A model generated the notes under the pieces. That model was not told the origin of the DNA. It saw only the letters and a program-made list of their open reading frames with translations, and did no database searches. Positions 508 through 20,005 of a stretch of DNA of 20,005 nucleotides are shown piece by piece. This DNA is from a virus, in the IMG/VR virus record IMGVR_UViG_3300025853_000887, positions 1 through 20,005 of that record. One strand, written 5' to 3'. The translations under genes and the position numbers were made by a program. Each line of letters begins with the position of its first letter. Position 1 is the stretch's first letter.

Positions 508-981
508 ATGAGTACCTTTAATTGGCAAAAACCAACAGTGCAAATGCTTGGTCGCTGGCAGCCATGGCATGATGGTCATACAGAACTTTTTAAAAGAGCA
601 CATGACATTACAGGTCAGGTGTGTATTATGGTTCGTGACGTTGGTGGTATTGTAGGCGAGGATGCTGGAGCGGGTAGAACCGCAGCCCAGACAGACAATC
701 CATTTAATAAAGATACGGTGTTTAATAATATTGAGAAAGGTCTATCCCTGCACTTTACAAAAGGTAAAGATTATATTATAATAGCAGTACCAAACATCGT
801 AGATATTTCATATGGACGTGGTGTTGGATATACATTTACTGAGCATGATCTAGGTGAAGATATTCACAAAATTTCTGCTACCAAGATCAGAGCAAAGATG
901 AGAGCCGAAGGTATCTTGGGTTACACAGAAGGCACTCGAATGGATGATAACTATTATTACATGAAAGATCCTAATGATTAA
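508..981 (+). CDS. HIGH-type nucleotidyltransferase (cytidylyltransferase/NMN adenylyltransferase fold)
   Basis: A 157-residue protein with both signatures of the nucleotidylyltransferase superfamily. GRWQPWHDGH at residues 15-24 is the (T/H)xGH nucleotide-binding loop seen as GRFQPxHxGH in NadM-type enzymes. ISATKIR at 122-128 is the distal ISxTxxR motif that contacts the triphosphate. The length fits a bare catalytic domain. Such enzymes join a nucleotide to a phosphorylated small molecule such as NMN or phosphopantetheine. Lying directly upstream of the helicase, it may serve NAD or cofactor supply during replication; the substrate is not readable from sequence. It overlaps the helicase start by eight bases. 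Confidence 0.8.
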   Translation: MSTFNWQKPTVQMLGRWQPWHDGHTELFKRAHDITGQVCIMVRDVGGIVGEDAGAGRTAAQTDNPFNKDTVFNNIEKGLSLHFTKGKDYIIIAVPNIVDISYGRGVGYTFTEHDLGEDIHKISATKIRAKMRAEGILGYTEGTRMDDNYYYMKDPND

Positions 982-6204: not shown

Positions 6205-6240
6205 TTGATGAATGAAAACTTTTAGTCAATGGAATATAAT

Positions 6241-6822
6241 ATGTACAGAATTCTATTAACATTATTTTTTATTATTATTGGTAGCGTTGGCTATGCACAA
6301 GGAGCTGCAATTGATTGCCCAGAAGGATACATTTGTACTATATCAGATACAGATGGAACACAGACTATAGACAGTACAACTACAGTCAAGTCTCCTCCTC
6401 CATCAGCTATTAGCCCCACAATTAACACAAGCAACAGTGACACTTGTACTATTGGTGTTTCTGGTGCGGTACAGACACAGATCCTTGGTATTAGTGCGGG
6501 TAAAACAGTTAGAGACTTTAACTGTGAAAGACTCAAAAATGCAAAAACACTTTATGATATGGGCATGAAGGTAGCTGCAGTTTCTGTAATGTGCCAAGAT
6601 AAAAGAATTTTTGATGCCATGATGGATGCAGGGACGCCATGTCCATATGACGGAATGATCGGAAAGATGGCTAAAGATGCTTGGGAAAATGACCCAAAGA
6701 AACAAGAAGAAAATACGAATAAAGACTTTAATATATTCAAGGATTGGGATAAGGATGACGCAGATACTGCAAAGGCTAGCCTTGGTATTGCTGCTTTGTT
6801 TGCCATCTTACTCGCACTCTGA
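6241..6822 (+). CDS. Exported cysteine-containing protein with hydrophobic C-terminus
   Basis: Encodes 193 residues. Residues 1-19 form a signal peptide cut after GYA. The mature part has six cysteines (including the IDCPEGYIC pair near the N-terminus), fitting disulphide bonds in the periplasm. A Thr/Ser/Pro-rich stretch around residues 48-72 is followed by a helical domain containing ERLKNAKTLYDMGMKVAAVSVMCQ. The last 15 residues are hydrophobic and may anchor the protein in a membrane. ATG 6241 is preferred to the in-frame ATG 6229 because GGAA lies six bases before it and the signal peptide then begins at once. It opens the late secreted cassette. The family is not recognised. Confidence 0.75.
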   Translation: MYRILLTLFFIIIGSVGYAQGAAIDCPEGYICTISDTDGTQTIDSTTTVKSPPPSAISPTINTSNSDTCTIGVSGAVQTQILGISAGKTVRDFNCERLKNAKTLYDMGMKVAAVSVMCQDKRIFDAMMDAGTPCPYDGMIGKMAKDAWENDPKKQEENTNKDFNIFKDWDKDDADTAKASLGIAALFAILLAL

Positions 6823-7646: not shown

Positions 7647-8147
7647 ATGAAAAAATTCTTAGCAGCTACTGCTTTGGTTATTATGGGCACAAGTGCAGCA
7701 TATGCAAATATCACTAACATTCAAGGTAATGTTCAATCACGCTGTTCAATTATCACAGAAACATCTGGTGTATATGGTAACCCTACAGCAGATAAACTAT
7801 CAACAGCACCTTCTGATGCTGGTGTTCTACCAATTATTCGTGTAGATGTTATCCAAGCAGATTCATATAAAGTTAAAATCTCTTGGCCTAATTCATTCTC
7901 ATCAAGCCCGCCACTTAGCGATAGTGTTGTATGGGATGGTGAAGTAGAAGTAAGTGCTGTATCAGACGCAAATATGTCATCATATGAAATTGATAAAGTT
8001 GAATATGAAAATCATACTGAATATGATTTAACCCTTTCTGGAAGTACTTGGTTTAAAGTAACATCTACTGCAGAATATGGAGCCGATAAATCATTTCCAG
8101 GTGGTTTATATACAGCTATTGTAACAAGTGAATGTATTCCGAAATAA
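7647..8147 (+). CDS. Exported beta-rich (pilin/spore-coat-U-like?) protein
   Basis: Encodes 166 residues. A clean signal peptide (1-20, cut after AYA) starts the protein, with AGGAAACACC as ribosome binding site. The mature part is strand-rich with one cysteine near each end (Cys33 and Cys163), which could be joined by a disulphide. The ending GGLYTAIVTSECIPK resembles the G-x-Y-x-x-x-V-T-V last strand of spore-coat-U and DUF4402 pilin-like domains. This likeness is weak and only by eye. It may be a secreted structural subunit. Immediately followed (TAATG overlap) by another exported protein, and headed by a late promoter. Confidence 0.7.
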   Translation: MKKFLAATALVIMGTSAAYANITNIQGNVQSRCSIITETSGVYGNPTADKLSTAPSDAGVLPIIRVDVIQADSYKVKISWPNSFSSSPPLSDSVVWDGEVEVSAVSDANMSSYEIDKVEYENHTEYDLTLSGSTWFKVTSTAEYGADKSFPGGLYTAIVTSECIPK

Positions 8148-9012: not shown

Positions 9013-9729
9013 ATGTCTTATGTAGACAGAAGCCACAAGATGGCTATTATGGCACAACTTGCCTATAAAGACAAAGAAGCTTGGATGGAATTCAAAGAAC
9101 TTGGATATCCATACCATAGATTTTTTAATATTGATGGTGCTCAAGTACACGTTGTTTGGAACAGTGGAGAGATGTGTATTTGTTTCCGAGGTACTGAACC
9201 GTCACAATTTTCCGATATTAAAGCAGATTTAAATGCGTTTCCAGATAAAGCGCAGGTTGGTGGCTGGGTTCATAATGGATTCCAGAACGAACTTGAAAAA
9301 GTATGGGATAAAGTTGCAAAAACCGTATCTGATAGAGGTAAGAAAAAGAAGCTATTCATATGCGGCCATTCCCTTGGTGGTGCTATGGCTACGGTGTGTG
9401 CAAGTAGATTAAAACCTACTGCTCTCTTTACATATGGATCCCCAAGAGTTGGTACACGTAAGTTCGTGCGCAATATTACTTGTGAACATCACAGGCATGT
9501 TAATAACAACGATATTGTCACGAAAGTCCCATTTGCCATTATGGGTTACAGACATCATGGTTCACTATGTTACATTAACTTCTACGGTAATATCCGTAAG
9601 ATGACTCCATGGCAGAGAATCAAAGATGGCTGGAGAGGTCGTTTCGCAGCATGGAAAAGGAAACAACTATTTGACTCTTTTAGAGATCACAGCATGCAAA
9701 ATTACATCAAATATCTGGAGAAAAAATAA
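9013..9729 (+). CDS. Class 3 lipase (alpha/beta hydrolase)
   Basis: A 238-residue protein with the layout of the Lipase_3 family. The oxyanion strand CFRGTEP is at about 57-63. The nucleophile elbow GHSLGGAMA holds Ser120, YGSPRVG is at 141-147, NNNDIVTKVP holds Asp167, and YRHHG holds His181/182, giving a full Ser-Asp-His triad. No signal peptide is visible, so the enzyme would act in the cytoplasm or leave at lysis. It probably hydrolyses acylglycerols or phospholipids. A role in membrane break-up or lipid salvage late in infection is an inference. It is followed without a gap by a nuclease, and its ribosome binding site lies in a hairpin. Confidence 0.9.
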   Translation: MSYVDRSHKMAIMAQLAYKDKEAWMEFKELGYPYHRFFNIDGAQVHVVWNSGEMCICFRGTEPSQFSDIKADLNAFPDKAQVGGWVHNGFQNELEKVWDKVAKTVSDRGKKKKLFICGHSLGGAMATVCASRLKPTALFTYGSPRVGTRKFVRNITCEHHRHVNNNDIVTKVPFAIMGYRHHGSLCYINFYGNIRKMTPWQRIKDGWRGRFAAWKRKQLFDSFRDHSMQNYIKYLEKK

Positions 9730-11582: not shown

Positions 11583-12542
11583 ATGGACGCACTCACACTG
11601 TGGAGCCTAGTCGGCTTCCTATTGGCTGCATATGCAGTTATTGCAAACGATTCAGTACAAACGCTCGGTACTTGGATGGCATCAAACAATGAGCGATTTA
11701 AATATACAACATTATGGGCAGCGGCATCCGCTGTTCTATTAGCAACACTCTGGTATGGTTGGAGTGTAAATGGTGGGGATATTTCATACGGTCGTTTGAA
11801 TAAAATCCCATGGCAAGAGGTACAGTGGTACCACGCTGCTGCACCTGCTATTTTGGTTGCACTGACTCGACTTGGTGTACCAGTATCAACTTCATTCCTA
11901 ATCTTATCTGTATTTGCTTCTACGTTTGTGTTAGAGAAAATGCTTATGAAATCTATTATGGGATATGGTGTTGCCGCTGCATTTGCATATGTTATCTGGT
12001 TTGCTATTCACAAATATGCTGGACAATGGTTTGATGAAACAAAACCAGTAACCGAAAGCAACAAAAGAGCATGGCGTATTGCTCAGTGGGTTGCAACAGG
12101 TGGTCTGTGGTGGACTTGGTTGTCTCACGATATGGCTAACATTGCAGTGTTCTTACCAAGGGTCATTCCAGTTGATCTAATGTTAATGATCAGCGTAGTG
12201 TTTGTTGGTGGTCTGTTTTTCATGTTCCGAGAACGTGGTGGTAAGATCCAACAGATTGTACTTGAGAAACACAACACAAGGTATGTTCGATCAGCAACAC
12301 TGATTGATCTATTCTATTGGTTGTGCTTGTACTTCTTTAAAGAACTCAATGACATTCCTATGTCTACTACTTGGGTCTTTGTTGGTTTACTTGCTGGTCG
12401 TGAACTTGCAATGGCTACTTACTTTGGTAAGAAGAAAACAAAGTCAGTGTTTCCATTGGTTGCAAAAGACTTTGGTAAGATGATGGTTGGACTTGGAGCT
12501 TCTGTCGCTCTGGTTCTCTTTATTCACTATGTATTAGTATAA
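11583..12542 (+). CDS. PiT-like inorganic phosphate transporter
   Basis: A 319-residue polytopic membrane protein, about eight to ten spans. It shows the internal duplication of the PiT/PHO4 family. The first half has IANDSVQTLG (about 20-29), recalling GANDVANA, and then RLGVPVSTSFLI. The second half has SHDMANIAVFLP and NDIPMSTTWVFVGLLAG, recalling the second AND motif and PVSTTH. It is much shorter than cellular PiT proteins (over 400 residues) because the central hydrophilic loop is small. Such proteins carry phosphate with sodium or protons. In a phage it would top up phosphate for DNA synthesis in phosphate-poor sea water. The match is by motif, so another ion-transporter family is possible. 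Confidence 0.7.
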   Translation: MDALTLWSLVGFLLAAYAVIANDSVQTLGTWMASNNERFKYTTLWAAASAVLLATLWYGWSVNGGDISYGRLNKIPWQEVQWYHAAAPAILVALTRLGVPVSTSFLILSVFASTFVLEKMLMKSIMGYGVAAAFAYVIWFAIHKYAGQWFDETKPVTESNKRAWRIAQWVATGGLWWTWLSHDMANIAVFLPRVIPVDLMLMISVVFVGGLFFMFRERGGKIQQIVLEKHNTRYVRSATLIDLFYWLCLYFFKELNDIPMSTTWVFVGLLAGRELAMATYFGKKKTKSVFPLVAKDFGKMMVGLGASVALVLFIHYVLV

Positions 12543-12545: not shown

Positions 12546-12572
12546 AATCTGCTAGGTATGAGGATATTGAAA

Positions 12573-13211
12573 ATGGATGATGATGACGCTTATAAAAAAT
12601 ATCAAAAGCATCATAAATGGTTCAATAAATTATACCTAGCAGAATCTCTCGGATATAATTGCGGTCCGTGTGGATTAGCACCTGAAGTCTCAGGTTGGTA
12701 TATAGTACGGCCAATTTACAACTTGTACGGAATGAGTGCTCTTGCAGAAAAGAAATGGATCGAAAAAGGTAATTGTAAAAATGGGCCACCTGGTCATTTC
12801 TGGTGTGAGTGGTTTGAAGGTCATCACTGGTCGGTTACATATAAATTTAGGTTAGCCTTGAACCCTTGGTGGGAAGCACTGAGTGCATATAGAGCAGAAA
12901 AACAAGGTTTAAAATTTACTAGGTGGAATAGATGGGTGCATTTAGAGGACACTCCTACTGTTCCTAGAATATTAAATGATCTGTCTGGCTTGCCAAAAAT
13001 AAATGTAGAGTTTATTGATAATAAGGCAATAGAAGTTCATTTAAGAGAATCGCCTGACCCAGATTATGATATATTAATACCAGTTTGGGCAGATACTGAC
13101 CAATCAAGAAAACCATCTGGCTATGATTTTATAGAGATGTTTGATGATGCAAAAGAATATTTAGAAAATCCTAGATTAGGTTTTTGGGTGAAAAATTATG
13201 CAAAATTTTAA
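12573..13211 (+). CDS. Conserved phage protein, function unknown
   Basis: Encodes 212 residues from ATG 12573, chosen because GAGG (12560-12563) sits nine bases upstream. An in-frame ATG at 12558 would add five residues but is too close to its AGG. The protein is very rich in Trp, Tyr and His, with a CGPCG motif near residue 31 and a segment GWYIVRPIYNLYGMSALAEK, later PGHFWCEWFEGHHWSVTY. The R-P-x-x-N-x-x-G-M and FWCE-x-x-x-G spacing faintly recalls ATP-grasp enzymes, but I would not assign it. It overlaps the following hydroxylase-like gene by 14 bases and shares its late promoter. Confidence 0.65.
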   Translation: MDDDDAYKKYQKHHKWFNKLYLAESLGYNCGPCGLAPEVSGWYIVRPIYNLYGMSALAEKKWIEKGNCKNGPPGHFWCEWFEGHHWSVTYKFRLALNPWWEALSAYRAEKQGLKFTRWNRWVHLEDTPTVPRILNDLSGLPKINVEFIDNKAIEVHLRESPDPDYDILIPVWADTDQSRKPSGYDFIEMFDDAKEYLENPRLGFWVKNYAKF

Positions 13212-16064: not shown

Positions 16065-16072
16065 TATAAATA
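16065..16072 (+). promoter_or_regulatory. T4-type late promoter of the virion operon
   Basis: Exact TATAAATA seven bases after a terminator and 38 bases before ATG 16111. Terminator followed by late box is the same arrangement as at 6170-6204. Confidence 0.75.
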
Positions 16073-16110: not shown

Positions 16111-16881
16111 ATGGAGAGGTTTAAAAGGTACATTTCAGAGATGTCTGTGACAGCTCAACAAGGTTTCCAATATGAGGTAAATGCTGTTAATGCACTTAAA
16201 CCTTTAGGAATTGTACCAAAAGATTTTACGCCAGCTGGCGCTGGTTCAGATATTCCAGATATTATGTTGCAGAAAAATGGGATTAAATCTGGTTGTGAAT
16301 TAAAAATCACTGCAGCCTCGGCTGGTTCATTAGTTATGAAATATGCAAATGGTAAATGGTCCATTGGTAACCCTAATGAAAAAAATGATGAAAAGATTTT
16401 TGTTATAGAACTTGCAAAAGAAGTTGGTGTACTAGATCTTATTGCAAAGCAGTGGAAAAATGAACCTTATAAATTTACTAAAGATGATGGTCTTAAATCT
16501 GAGATTGCAGGTCTTGGTAAACGAGAAATTTACTCAAAAGAATTAGCAAGATTTAAAGAAATCAAAGGTAAAATTCCTGCTACAAAAATTGAAGAATATT
16601 ATAATAAAAAGAAAACATATTATGTAAATGTTGGAACTCATGGTTTCTATTTGTTAGGAAAAAAGAACCCTCTTAGACTTAAAGACATACCTACATTTGG
16701 ACAGTCTGCTGAAGCAGTATATAGAGCAAGAGTTCAAGCAAAAGGTGGCGGTGCATATCAGTTTACATTTGAGATGTCTTTCAGTATTCCAGCTGGTAAG
16801 AAATCAAAATACAATATTGCGCCAATTAAAAAAGGATCTGTTAAAATTTTAGACCTAGATATAGAGTGGTATAAAAAATAA
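16111..16881 (+). CDS. Capsid-targeted protein with a PD-(D/E)xK nuclease-like site
   Basis: Encodes 256 residues from ATG 16111, after AAAGGAAG (16098-16105); the GTG at 16105 is in frame but lies in that site. The N-terminus MERFKRYISE aligns position by position with the T4 internal-protein targeting peptide MKTYQEFIAE, ending in I-x-E, where the gp21 protease cuts. After it, SDIPDIML (Asp47, Asp50) and SGCELKI (Glu63-x-Lys65) have the spacing of a PD-(D/E)xK nuclease core, with Glu22 in the first helix. Inference: a nuclease carried in the head and injected with the DNA. The fold call is by eye and could be wrong. Confidence 0.7.
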   Translation: MERFKRYISEMSVTAQQGFQYEVNAVNALKPLGIVPKDFTPAGAGSDIPDIMLQKNGIKSGCELKITAASAGSLVMKYANGKWSIGNPNEKNDEKIFVIELAKEVGVLDLIAKQWKNEPYKFTKDDGLKSEIAGLGKREIYSKELARFKEIKGKIPATKIEEYYNKKKTYYVNVGTHGFYLLGKKNPLRLKDIPTFGQSAEAVYRARVQAKGGGAYQFTFEMSFSIPAGKKSKYNIAPIKKGSVKILDLDIEWYKK

Positions 16882-17654
16882 TGGCTATTAGTAGTAGACA
16901 TTTTGCAAATACACATCTAGCCGAATCGGTTGATATATCTGCTGGAAGGGTACTTAAAACTGATTTCATTCACAAGTTTGGGCGTAATCCAAGTGTAGGT
17001 GGTGCTCCTGAAACCATATGGCAACATGGTGGTATTTATAACTACCTTTCTTCGGCATCAACTGTTTTTGTTTCAAGTAATGATGCAGATGATAACCCAA
17101 CTGGAAACGGAGCGCAAACAGTAACAATCCTAGGATTAGATGCAAATTACAATGAGATTGAAGCAACTCAGCCAGTTAACAATCTTGTAGGTACTACTGA
17201 ATTTTTGAGAGTCTATCGTGCGTTTGTTGCATCTGCAGGTTCAACTGGAACAAATGAAGGTAATGTAATAATATCAACAGCAGCCGGCGGCGGTGGCACA
17301 GTCTTAGCTGATATCGGCACAATTGGAGTCGGTACAACTTACGGTCTAGGACAAACGCAACTTGCGCTTTATACTATTCCCCTTCACTGCACTGGATATT
17401 TAACTAAATGGAATGTTGGAGTTGGCGCTTATAACTCTTCAATAACTGCATCATTATATACGAGACTTTATGATCCTAATAATGGAGCATTTAGAACTAG
17501 AGATATTATGGATGTTCCTGGTGGGTTTCATACTCGCGATTATCAAATTCCAATTAAGCTTCCGGCAAAAACAGATATTGAAATAAGAGCAATCGCTTCG
17601 ACTGGTAGCATTATTTCATCATCGTTTGACATAACATTGGTAAGAAACAGATGA
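16881..17654 (+). CDS. Probable virion structural protein
   Basis: Encodes 257 residues, rich in Gly, Ser, Thr and Asn, almost all beta strand, with no signal peptide. Segments such as APETIWQHGGIYNYLSSAST and NPTGNGAQTVTILGLDANYN have the look of repeated-strand phage head or tail surface proteins, which I recall from other marine phages. It overlaps the genes on either side (TAATG at the start, ATGA at the end), so it is made together with the capsid-targeted proteins. Unlike those four it has no targeting peptide, consistent with an outer or decoration role. The exact position in the particle is unknown. Confidence 0.7.
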   Translation: MAISSRHFANTHLAESVDISAGRVLKTDFIHKFGRNPSVGGAPETIWQHGGIYNYLSSASTVFVSSNDADDNPTGNGAQTVTILGLDANYNEIEATQPVNNLVGTTEFLRVYRAFVASAGSTGTNEGNVIISTAAGGGGTVLADIGTIGVGTTYGLGQTQLALYTIPLHCTGYLTKWNVGVGAYNSSITASLYTRLYDPNNGAFRTRDIMDVPGGFHTRDYQIPIKLPAKTDIEIRAIASTGSIISSSFDITLVRNR

Positions 17655-18868
17655 ACTTTAAAGATTTTATAACTGAACAAAAGAATACCCATATGACGCA
17701 CATTGAAGATGCTGTCATATATGGCGGTGTGAATGGTGCTAGAGAAAGTATTCTAGCTTTAAGATCTGTACGTGATATGCTAAAAGGGGAACATGATGGA
17801 AACATTTCTGTTAAATGGGATGGTGCTCCTGCTATTTTTGCTGGTACTGACCCTAGTGACGGAAAATTCTTTGTTGCGAAGAAAGGAATCTTCAATAAAA
17901 ATCCTAAAGTATATAAGACTGCTGCTGATGTTGATGCTGACACTAGTGGTGATCTTGCTAATAAATTAAAACTTGCACTTAAGGAATTACCTTCAATAGG
18001 TATCAAAGGTGTTATTCAAGGAGACTTTTTGTACGGACCTGGTGATGTTAAAACCAAAAAGATTAAAGGTGAATCCTACGTCACGTTTCATCCTAATACT
18101 ATTGTTTATGCTATCCCTGATGGAACACCAATGGCAGATGATATTAAGAGAGCAAAACTAGGTATTGTTTGGCACACTACATATAAAGGACAAACATTCG
18201 AAACAATGAGGGCTTCTTATGGAGTAGATACATCTAAGTTTAAATCGAGAACTGTCTGGTCACAAGACGCAATGTTAAGAGATCTTTCAAAATATACAAT
18301 GACGAAAAAAGAAACTGGAGCTGTAAATGCACATCTTTCAAATGCTGGCAAAATATTCAACAAAATTTCTGGAACTACTCTCCGAAAAATTGAAGCAAAT
18401 CCCACACTTGCTCAGCACATCGAAACGCATAACAACACATATGTCAGAGCCGGAACTGTTATCGGAGATACAACAAGACATGTATCCAGTCTTATTAAAT
18501 GGATTTCAAAAAAGTATCAAAAAGAAATTGATTCAAGAAAAACTGAAAGAGGCAAGAGAACTCAGCAGGCAAAGCTAGATGAAATTCTTGATTTTTTCAC
18601 ACCTCAAAACAAAAATAGTTTAAAATTGTTGTTTGATTTACAAAAAGAATTGGTCCTAGCAAAACTAATCCTTATAAATAAACTTAATAAATTATCTTCT
18701 ATTAAAACCTTTGTAAAAACAAATAAAGGTTATGTTACCACTGGACCTGAAGGTTACGTGGCAATTGATAAAATTGGTGGTGATGCGTTAAAGATTGTTG
18801 ATCGAATGGAATTTTCTTACAACAACTTTTCGCCGGATGTTTTAAAGGGCTGGGATAAAGGCCGATAA
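17651..18868 (+). CDS. Capsid-targeted DUF6267-like protein with a ligase-like KWDG motif
   Basis: A 405-residue protein. MNFKDFITE (residues 1-9) matches the capsid-targeting pattern and ends in I-x-E. THMTHIEDAVIYGGVNGAR follows. ISVKWDGAPAIFAG at 52-65 contains K-x-D-G, the nucleotide-attachment motif of the ligase/capping fold, and IKGVIQGDFLYG (118-129) looks like its motif III. From memory this type of protein (DUF6267) is widespread in T4-like marine phages. The C-terminal half is helical and basic. It may seal or modify nucleic acid after injection; activity is an inference. It overlaps the upstream gene by four bases. Confidence 0.75.
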   Translation: MNFKDFITEQKNTHMTHIEDAVIYGGVNGARESILALRSVRDMLKGEHDGNISVKWDGAPAIFAGTDPSDGKFFVAKKGIFNKNPKVYKTAADVDADTSGDLANKLKLALKELPSIGIKGVIQGDFLYGPGDVKTKKIKGESYVTFHPNTIVYAIPDGTPMADDIKRAKLGIVWHTTYKGQTFETMRASYGVDTSKFKSRTVWSQDAMLRDLSKYTMTKKETGAVNAHLSNAGKIFNKISGTTLRKIEANPTLAQHIETHNNTYVRAGTVIGDTTRHVSSLIKWISKKYQKEIDSRKTERGKRTQQAKLDEILDFFTPQNKNSLKLLFDLQKELVLAKLILINKLNKLSSIKTFVKTNKGYVTTGPEGYVAIDKIGGDALKIVDRMEFSYNNFSPDVLKGWDKGR

Positions 18869-18880
18869 TGGGGAAACCTA

Positions 18881-19318
18881 ATGTTAAGATTTAGAGATAT
18901 GTATGTAGTAGAGTATCGTCCAGGAGAAGACGAACTTACTAATTATCGTGCTCACAGGCGCCACCACATCGGCGAAGAAGCTGTTGACGAAAAACTTTCA
19001 ATGCAAGCAAGATTAAGAAAATCTCGAGTAATGAAGCGAAATAAAGCTAAATTAAAACTCGGGAGAAATAGAGCTGCCCGTAAATTTGCAGATATGAAAA
19101 CTCTTAAAAAAAGAGCTCAACGGCAAGCATATAAAACAATGTTTAAGAAATTATCAAAGGGTGCTACTAACCTGGCACCTGGACGTAAATCTGAAATTGA
19201 AGCCAGACTAAGAAAACCTATTATGGTATCTAAAATTAATCGAACAGCTAAAAAATTAGTCAAGGTTGTGAGGCAACGAGAGAAGGACCGTAAGGCCTCT
19301 AAAGTGGCGGGTAAATAA
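18881..19318 (+). CDS. Very basic protein with capsid-targeting-like N-terminus
   Basis: Encodes 145 residues, about a third Lys or Arg, with few acidic residues after residue 40. MLRFRDMYVVE fits the pattern of the neighbouring targeting peptides, though the cleavage triplet is V-V-E rather than I/L-x-E. Small and basic is the character of T4 internal proteins, which are packed with the DNA. The rest is long basic helix with repeated R-K-x-x-x-K patterns and would bind DNA. The ATG at 18881 follows GGGGAA at 18869-18874. It lies between two other targeted proteins. Confidence 0.7.
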   Translation: MLRFRDMYVVEYRPGEDELTNYRAHRRHHIGEEAVDEKLSMQARLRKSRVMKRNKAKLKLGRNRAARKFADMKTLKKRAQRQAYKTMFKKLSKGATNLAPGRKSEIEARLRKPIMVSKINRTAKKLVKVVRQREKDRKASKVAGK

Positions 19319-20005
19319 ATGATAGGGTCATTTAAACAATATTTGGTTGAGGAAAACAAGATTGTTGTTTTCTCTTTTGGGCGTATGAATCCGCCTACCA
19401 TTGGTCATGAGAAATTGTTAGACGCTATGGCAAAAAATGCTGGTAGGAATCCTTACCGTATGTACTTGTCTCAGTCTCAAGATGCTAAAAAGAATCCTCT
19501 TGCATACAAAGATAAATTAAAAATTGCAAGAAAGATGTTTCCCAAACACGCCAGAAATATTCTTAAATCAGATAAATTAAAAAATGTATTTCAGGTTGCC
19601 ACTTCTTTATATAATGAAGGTTACCGCAACGTAATTATGGTTGTTGGATCCGATCGTATTCGTGAATTTGATATTTTATTAAATAAGTACAACGGTAAAA
19701 AAGGAGCGCACGGCTTTTATAACTTTATGGATATTAAAGTTGTATCAGCTGGTGATCGTGACCCTGATGCAGAAGGTGCTACTGGAATGTCTGCATCTAA
19801 AATGCGTGCAGCTGCATCTGACAATGACTTTACCAAATTTTCTCAAGGTATTCCAAAAGCAGTAAGCAACGCAGAATCTAAAAAGATTTTTAACATGGTC
19901 CGTAAAGGTATGGGTCTCAAAGAACAGACTGAGTTTAAGAGACACATTCAGTTAGAACCAGTATCTGATGTGCGTGAAGCATATGTGGATGGATCACTAT
20001 ATTCT
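19319..20005 (+). CDS. Capsid-targeted nucleotidyltransferase (partial, runs off the window)
   Basis: The first 229 residues are present and the frame is open to the window end. MIGSFKQYLVE is a targeting-type peptide ending in L-x-E. GRMNPPTIGH at 21-30 is the HIGH-type nucleotide-binding loop and MSASKMR (157-163) the distal motif, so the fold is that of NMN adenylyl- or cytidylyltransferases. VVGSDRIREF is the usual central segment. This is the second such enzyme in the window; the one at 508 lacks the targeting peptide. The ATG lies directly after the upstream stop. Substrate unknown. Confidence 0.8.
   Translation, partial: MIGSFKQYLVEENKIVVFSFGRMNPPTIGHEKLLDAMAKNAGRNPYRMYLSQSQDAKKNPLAYKDKLKIARKMFPKHARNILKSDKLKNVFQVATSLYNEGYRNVIMVVGSDRIREFDILLNKYNGKKGAHGFYNFMDIKVVSAGDRDPDAEGATGMSASKMRAAASDNDFTKFSQGIPKAVSNAESKKIFNMVRKGMGLKEQTEFKRHIQLEPVSDVREAYVDGSLYS

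Follow-up and report, generated by a model that had tools for sequence, protein, structure and literature searches.

The internal head proteins IPI, IPII and IPIII of phage T4, together with Alt, carry N-terminal propeptides that are cut by gp21. For IPIII, a review (PMC9026906) attributes targeting to residues 4 and 7 of this peptide and processing to residues 8 and 10, and an aspartate at residue 10 allows targeting with processing blocked. In phages SPN3US and phiKZ, head proteins are cut after glutamate by a gp21-related protease and are partly delivered into the host (PMC9026906). Reports of enzymes in cyanophage virions date back to 2010, with no packaging route given and with contamination remaining a doubt; a conserved, experimentally defined T4 signal carried by these enzymes offers such a route. 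In the accessible portions of the cyanophage virion papers, no targeting sequence, packaging route or tag removal is mentioned, and a limited, open-access literature search yielded no paper linking the capsid-targeting sequence (CTS) to marine T4-like phages, virion enzymes or DUF6267.

The stretch of DNA analysed here (the window, 20,005 nucleotides) is the 20-kb record of an uncultured virus, a T4-like phage related to Kyanoviridae. The closest annotated genome is that of Phage C48C1 (63% identity across gene 3), and a longer contig of this virus (44.9 kb), termed G001, matched the window exactly at the operon positions tested. A five-gene operon on the + strand occupies the right end of the window, from 16111 to its end, with the following features:

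16065..16072, + strand: T4-type late promoter TATAAATA, 39–46 nt upstream of gene 1
16111..16881, + strand: gene 1, PD-(D/E)xK nuclease-like protein (invariant residues; phrog_26930)
16111..16140, + strand: CTS of gene 1, MERFKRYISE (strict motif match)
16881..17654, + strand: gene 2, untagged structural-type virion protein (phrog_8198, 3e-61)
17651..18868, + strand: gene 3, DUF6267 (PF19782, 1e-102), RNA/DNA-ligase-like nucleotidyltransferase
17651..17677, + strand: CTS of gene 3, MNFKDFITE (strict motif match)
18881..19318, + strand: gene 4, small, very basic protein (composition; phrog_23027, 1e-5)
18881..18913, + strand: CTS-like, off-register N-terminus of gene 4, MLRFRDMYVVE (strict motif not matched)
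19319..20005, + strand: gene 5, cytidyltransferase/NMNAT-like protein (phrog_3041, 1e-62), truncated by the window end
19319..19351, + strand: CTS of gene 5, MIGSFKQYLVE (strict match, kept on 85/104 homologues)

T4-type late promoter sites were more numerous in the window than expected (6 versus 1.9), and six were reached in 0 of 100 shuffles. On the + strand, four of the five sites stand 13–39 nt before gene starts, three of them, besides TATAAATA, at 13–25 nt. Late expression of the operon from TATAAATA at 16065 is predicted on sequence evidence only, in agreement with the preliminary description, which had predicted a late operon. The start of gene 1 was placed at ATG 16111, preceded at 5 nt by AGGAAG; translation might instead begin at GTG 16105.

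The start codons of gene sets were scanned with a strict CTS motif,.{2,5}[FY][KRSTQNED].[FYL][ILV].E, for which the expected number was taken from the motif rate inside the same proteins and P from the Poisson distribution. Three matches were found in the window versus 0.10 expected (P about 1.5e-4) and four in G001 versus 0.11 expected (P 5.6e-6); the additional match, MVRFRQYISE, starts a 124-aa protein in the downstream part of the operon, beyond the window end. Phage C48C1 yielded six matches versus 0.54 expected, all of them at 57.3–68.4 kb, within 11 kb of a 156-kb genome. In the T4 control scan, the tags of IPII and IPIII were recovered, plus gene 61.1. The same start-codon scan of HTVC008M, a relative with gp21, gave zero strict CTS genes.

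The preliminary description had claimed four tagged N-termini in this operon. All four peptides are present where it placed them, and those of genes 1, 3 and 5 match strictly, with aromatic residues equivalent to positions 4 and 7 of T4 IPIII followed by the [IL]-x-E form of the gp21 cut site (ISE, ITE and LVE, respectively). The fourth remains doubtful: the N-terminus of gene 4 is off register, with one residue too many and V-V-E in place of an I/L-containing site, and does not qualify as a strict CTS. Gene 2, which had been described as lacking the tag, was indeed without the motif, as were 46 of 46 homologues.

Conservation of the tag was determined with a residue set narrower than the one given above, D and E having been added before the S-CREM2 scan described below. 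The gene 5 homologues, with the strict motif on 85 of 104, form a sample not selected by the tag. For gene 3, the strict motif was observed on 71 of 126 homologues and a looser form on 21 of 126; this locus set had been picked in part by its own N-terminus (pattern MNFKDFIT), and the claim of conservation therefore leans on gene 5 and on the loci fetched via gene 1, where 33 of 35 full-length copies of gene 3 carry the tag. Gene 1 itself was strictly tagged in 25 of 86 homologues, while the tag is absent from the start of 58 of 86, most of these beginning at MAAQQGF, i.e., where the tag would end. Among homologues of gene 4, the pattern [FY][KR]x[FYLM] was kept in 76 of 90 and V-D was present in 44 of 90, with a full CTS in only 3 of 90; the C48C1 homologue has a strict one (MLSFKQFVSE). 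Carriage of the tag is modular, some lineages having gene 3 alone tagged, and it varies, since HTVC008M has gp21 without a strict CTS and more than half of the nuclease homologues are untagged.

The columns conserved in common by three unrelated families (genes 1, 3 and 5) are F/Y, F/Y, I/L and E. The resulting pattern, aromatic-x-x-aromatic-[IL]-x-E, corresponds to residues 4, 7, 8 and 10 of the T4 CTS.

A gp21-type Peptidase_S77 gene was found in every member of a set of nine phage genomes, T4 included, and in all five searched metagenomic genomes above 140 kb; S-CRM01 also has one. In the window record and in G001, no gp21 gene was found; both are fragments, and for this reason gp21 is inferred for this virus from its relatives. 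S-TIM5, in which no S77 match was found, was considered as a gp21-free negative control and set aside as not clean, because it nevertheless has one strict CTS match. At the cleavage site of the major capsid protein (gp23), T4 has L-T-E and all aligned relatives have L-x-E, so the cleavage rule of the prohead protease appears, from the aligned sequences, to be conserved in this lineage.

Further evidence comes from virion mass spectrometry of cyanophages by other laboratories. The virions of S-SM1 (PMC3037559), S-CREM2 (PMC10665884, Table 3) and S-SZBM1 (PMC9146016) were shown to contain a cytidylyltransferase, and the homologue in S-SCSM1 virions was detected as NMNAT (PMC9602691; record annotation). 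All four virion-detected enzymes are tagged: MKKFSAFLNE in S-SM1, MKNFSSFLTE in S-CREM2, MRFRQFIIE in S-SZBM1 and MKSFLQFLKE in S-SCSM1. The last fits at the four key positions, with a second-position residue outside the strict motif set.

In S-CREM2, only three of 219 genes carry the strict CTS, namely a SAM hydrolase, an APH-like kinase and the cytidylyltransferase. All three belong to the virion set of 52 proteins (P 0.013, hypergeometric); with a wider motif, five of seven genes fall into this set (P 0.009), and with the narrower residue set lacking D and E there is one match, also a virion protein. Two genes adjoining the kinase likewise encode virion proteins: ORF13 (MKDLHSFLTE) and ORF12, annotated as Cas9, which has a stretch resembling the CTS near residue 18. 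The same kinase class is cited in PMC10665884 as present in S-CRM01 virions. The S-CRM01 kinase begins with MISFDQFLSE, and the same or a near motif was observed on its neighbours, a cytidyltransferase (MKLFNQFFKE), a small protein (MKKLDQFLTE) and another protein (VKLSLDSFIKE). Virion proteins without the tag also occur in these operons (e.g., S-SCSM1 89, 90 and 92), and the tag is therefore not the sole route into the virion.

The reading of these N-termini as a T4-like CTS, first made from the window alone, is supported in four respects. The conserved residues are those to which T4 mutational work assigns targeting and gp21 processing (PMC9026906), complete relatives have the gp21-type protease and the L-x-E capsid site, the operon is preceded by a late promoter, and tagged homologues are found in virions by the mass spectrometry of other laboratories.

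Regarding the cargo, motif I (KxDG), motif IV (EGxV) and the lysine of motif V are all present in gene 3, and K55, D57, G58, E367, G368, V370 and K381 were invariant in 38 sequences. The AlphaFold model reached pLDDT 87.6, with the tag (residues 1–13, pLDDT below 50) predicted to be disordered and to lie outside the folded domain as a tail. Structural alignments placed RNA ligases on top, with Z values of 7.7 for a Naegleria RNA ligase and 7.1 for T4 Rnl1; the fold would have been regarded as settled at Z 8. A Foldseek search gave E of about 0.1, and searching the PDB by sequence produced no useful match for this gene. The ligase-like assignment proposed earlier is supported by the invariant motifs together with a good model, which aligns best to RNA ligases, with Z at most 7.7.

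For gene 5, the earlier assignment as a nucleotidyltransferase is clear by family (phrog_3041). The match to PF01467 was 19.3 bits, just below the cut-off of 21, and NPPTIGH fits the [HT]xGH motif; in G001 the full-length protein has 555 aa, with a long extra C-terminal part. The nuclease-like character suggested for gene 1 stands on a single basis, the residues E24, P51-D52 and E65-x-K67, which do not vary in 26 homologues with identities as low as 31%. There was no Pfam match and no usable NCBIfam family, PDB sequence searches yielded nothing useful, and the AlphaFold model, made from a single sequence without an alignment, was unusable (pLDDT 33.8). Gene 4 is possibly DNA-binding, judging from composition; Pfam and NCBIfam offered no usable family. 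For gene 2, a structural role apart from that of the tagged members is likely, because its homologue S-CREM2 gp176 (35% identity, 7e-31) is well detected in virions, with 20 peptides in Table 3 of PMC10665884.

Taken as a whole, the results favor, with a probability of roughly 0.83, a late operon in a T4-like phage related to Kyanoviridae, in which enzymes bearing a true T4-type CTS are packed into the head, cut by gp21 and delivered to the host. The operon genes would be expressed late; the aromatic pair F-x-x-F/Y would dock the tag to the prohead core and direct each enzyme there; and the gp21-type S77 protease would cleave [IL]-x-E behind its glutamate, just as it processes the major capsid protein. 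Once released, the enzymes would stay inside the head alongside the DNA and pass into the host together with it. The predicted cargo comprises the PD-(D/E)xK nuclease-like protein, the RNA-ligase-like DUF6267 protein, the cytidyltransferase/NMNAT-like protein and the tagged 124-aa protein of G001. Their role can only be guessed as immediate repair or counter-defence before any phage gene is expressed, with tasks that the enzyme types might indicate: RNA ligation, supply of NAD+ or nucleotides, and cutting of host DNA. Nucleotide and protein sequences directly show the tag and its conservation, the late promoter and, for the relatives, both the protease and the capsid site; the cut position, ejection, and function in the host cell are inferred. 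Virions of this phage have not been analysed, and the data suggest, without demonstrating virion presence, cleavage, injection or enzyme activity for it, that the tagged enzymes are packed in the head and injected with the DNA.

Packing into the head might serve assembly only, the tag binding the core or scaffold and the proteins not being meant for the host. T4 IPIII does affect head morphogenesis (PMC9026906), and gene 4 might be a protein that is targeted yet uncut, by analogy with the aspartate variant that permits targeting without cleavage in T4; its register differs, and this is not claimed. The tagged bodies, however, are enzyme-like, with conserved active-site residues, and are not scaffold proteins, and the tagged enzyme differs between lineages, including elsewhere a SAM hydrolase and kinases, which makes a purely morphogenetic purpose improbable.

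It is less probable still that the motif reflects only the ordinary likeness of short basic-aromatic starts and that the virion enzymes are contaminants. The S-CREM2 authors themselves raised the possibility that soluble enzymes co-purify (PMC10665884), and the association within that single genome is modest (P 0.013). Yet in several genomes the motif is more frequent at gene starts than inside proteins, unrelated families keep the same four columns, and the published virion lists of S-CREM2 and S-SZBM1 hold few non-structural enzymes, the strictly tagged ones included. On these three grounds, neither chance nor contamination was accepted as the main explanation; the tag on virion enzymes argues against contamination. 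Convergent likeness of a peptide aimed at a membrane, the tail or a replication complex is the least credible option: short amphipathic N-termini can serve many ends and several relatives have these genes close to replication genes, but the invariant E after [IL]-x matches the site at which the capsid protein of those genomes is cleaved, the promoter is of the late type, and homologues are present in virions.

Beyond delivery of tagged enzymes in this one phage, we lean, with considerably more reserve, towards a general interpretation. T4-like phages of marine and freshwater origin would share a swappable ten-residue capsid-loading code, which different enzymes acquire or lose (RNA-ligase-like, nuclease-like and NMNAT-like proteins, SAM hydrolase, kinases and the Cas9-annotated nuclease), giving lineage-specific, pre-made sets for counter-defence or takeover that can be read from sequence. 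The CTS as such was already known from T4; what is new is the cargo set and a usable prediction rule. Given the signal, the contamination doubt becomes directly testable through virion peptides starting right after the E, a place in the virion and a ligase-like fold are suggested for DUF6267 (about 450 phage records), and candidate injected proteins of uncultured phages can be listed from sequence.

Compared with the internal proteins of T4, the operon has the same 10-residue N-terminal tag with aromatics at 4 and 7 and [IL]-x-E at 8–10, a late-type promoter, and, in relatives of the phage, a gp21-type protease. It differs in the bodies that are tagged, which are unrelated in family searches (ligase-like, nuclease-like and cytidyltransferase), and in that untagged homologues of its enzymes exist. 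The ejection proteins of SPN3US and phiKZ belong to another phage lineage and have other bodies, and the cut motif of phiKZ is S/A-x-E. Gene 3 shares KxDG and EGxV with T4 RNA ligase 1 and the RNA/DNA ligase/capping-enzyme superfamily, and in structure it aligned best with RNA ligases including T4 Rnl1 and Rnl2 (Z 7.7 to 6.9); differences from them are that identity is only about 10–16%, that its motifs are separated by a large helical region, that it bears a capsid tag and that Z stays below 8. Further counterparts are the virion cytidylyltransferase/NMNAT (T4-GC190) and kinases of S-SM1, S-SCSM1, S-SZBM1, S-CREM2 and S-CRM01, which bear the same tag; the cyanophage virion cytidyltransferase is homologous to gene 5 and usually adjoins DUF6267.

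Two of the operon products were found joined to a third in other phages, in different combinations. In S-PM2 (locus L005:5992-7771), cytidyltransferase and DUF6267 sequence were joined, and in DLP6 (locus L002:9721-11889), the basic protein and the cytidyltransferase. Because their sequences are joined in these phages, joint action of the DUF6267, cytidyltransferase and basic proteins is suggested, on sequence grounds alone.

A second CTP_transf_like protein, with an HDGH motif and without the CTS tag, was observed at window 508-981, its match falling below the Pfam cut-off. A DnaB/gp41-like helicase gene adjoins it.

A TATAAATA late promoter was located 13-25 nt ahead of each of three further window genes (6229-6822, 7647-8147 and 12558-13211), the products of the first two of which look, by eye, like exported proteins. 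Also by eye alone, the product of 9013-9729 was judged lipase-like (GHSLGG), and that of 11583-12542 a phosphate-permease-like membrane protein.

Small proteins of cyanophages carrying a peptide like GFTGxxAxxGPxAGYDP:
S-CREM2 ORF160, L011:16343-17236
S-SCSM1 97, L264:33122-33307
S-SM1 197, L263:22806-23354

In the mature major capsid protein, the N-terminal arm has a sequence matching this peptide. Two of the three small proteins are listed virion proteins.

Cyanophage proteins with a CTS-like stretch behind a shared N-terminal leader, xSRWxxWSxG:
S-CREM2 ORF12, L214:7704-10313
S-CRM01 128, L267:10702-11253

Since this common leader precedes the CTS-like stretch in both, certain tags may be displaced inward from the extreme N-terminus.

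In T4 itself, the start-codon motif scan yielded a strict CTS match, MKTFKEFIKE, at the N-terminus of gene 61.1 (NC_000866, 18966-19130, minus strand). Its 54-aa product, of unknown function, may, judging from this motif, be an additional small internal protein of T4.
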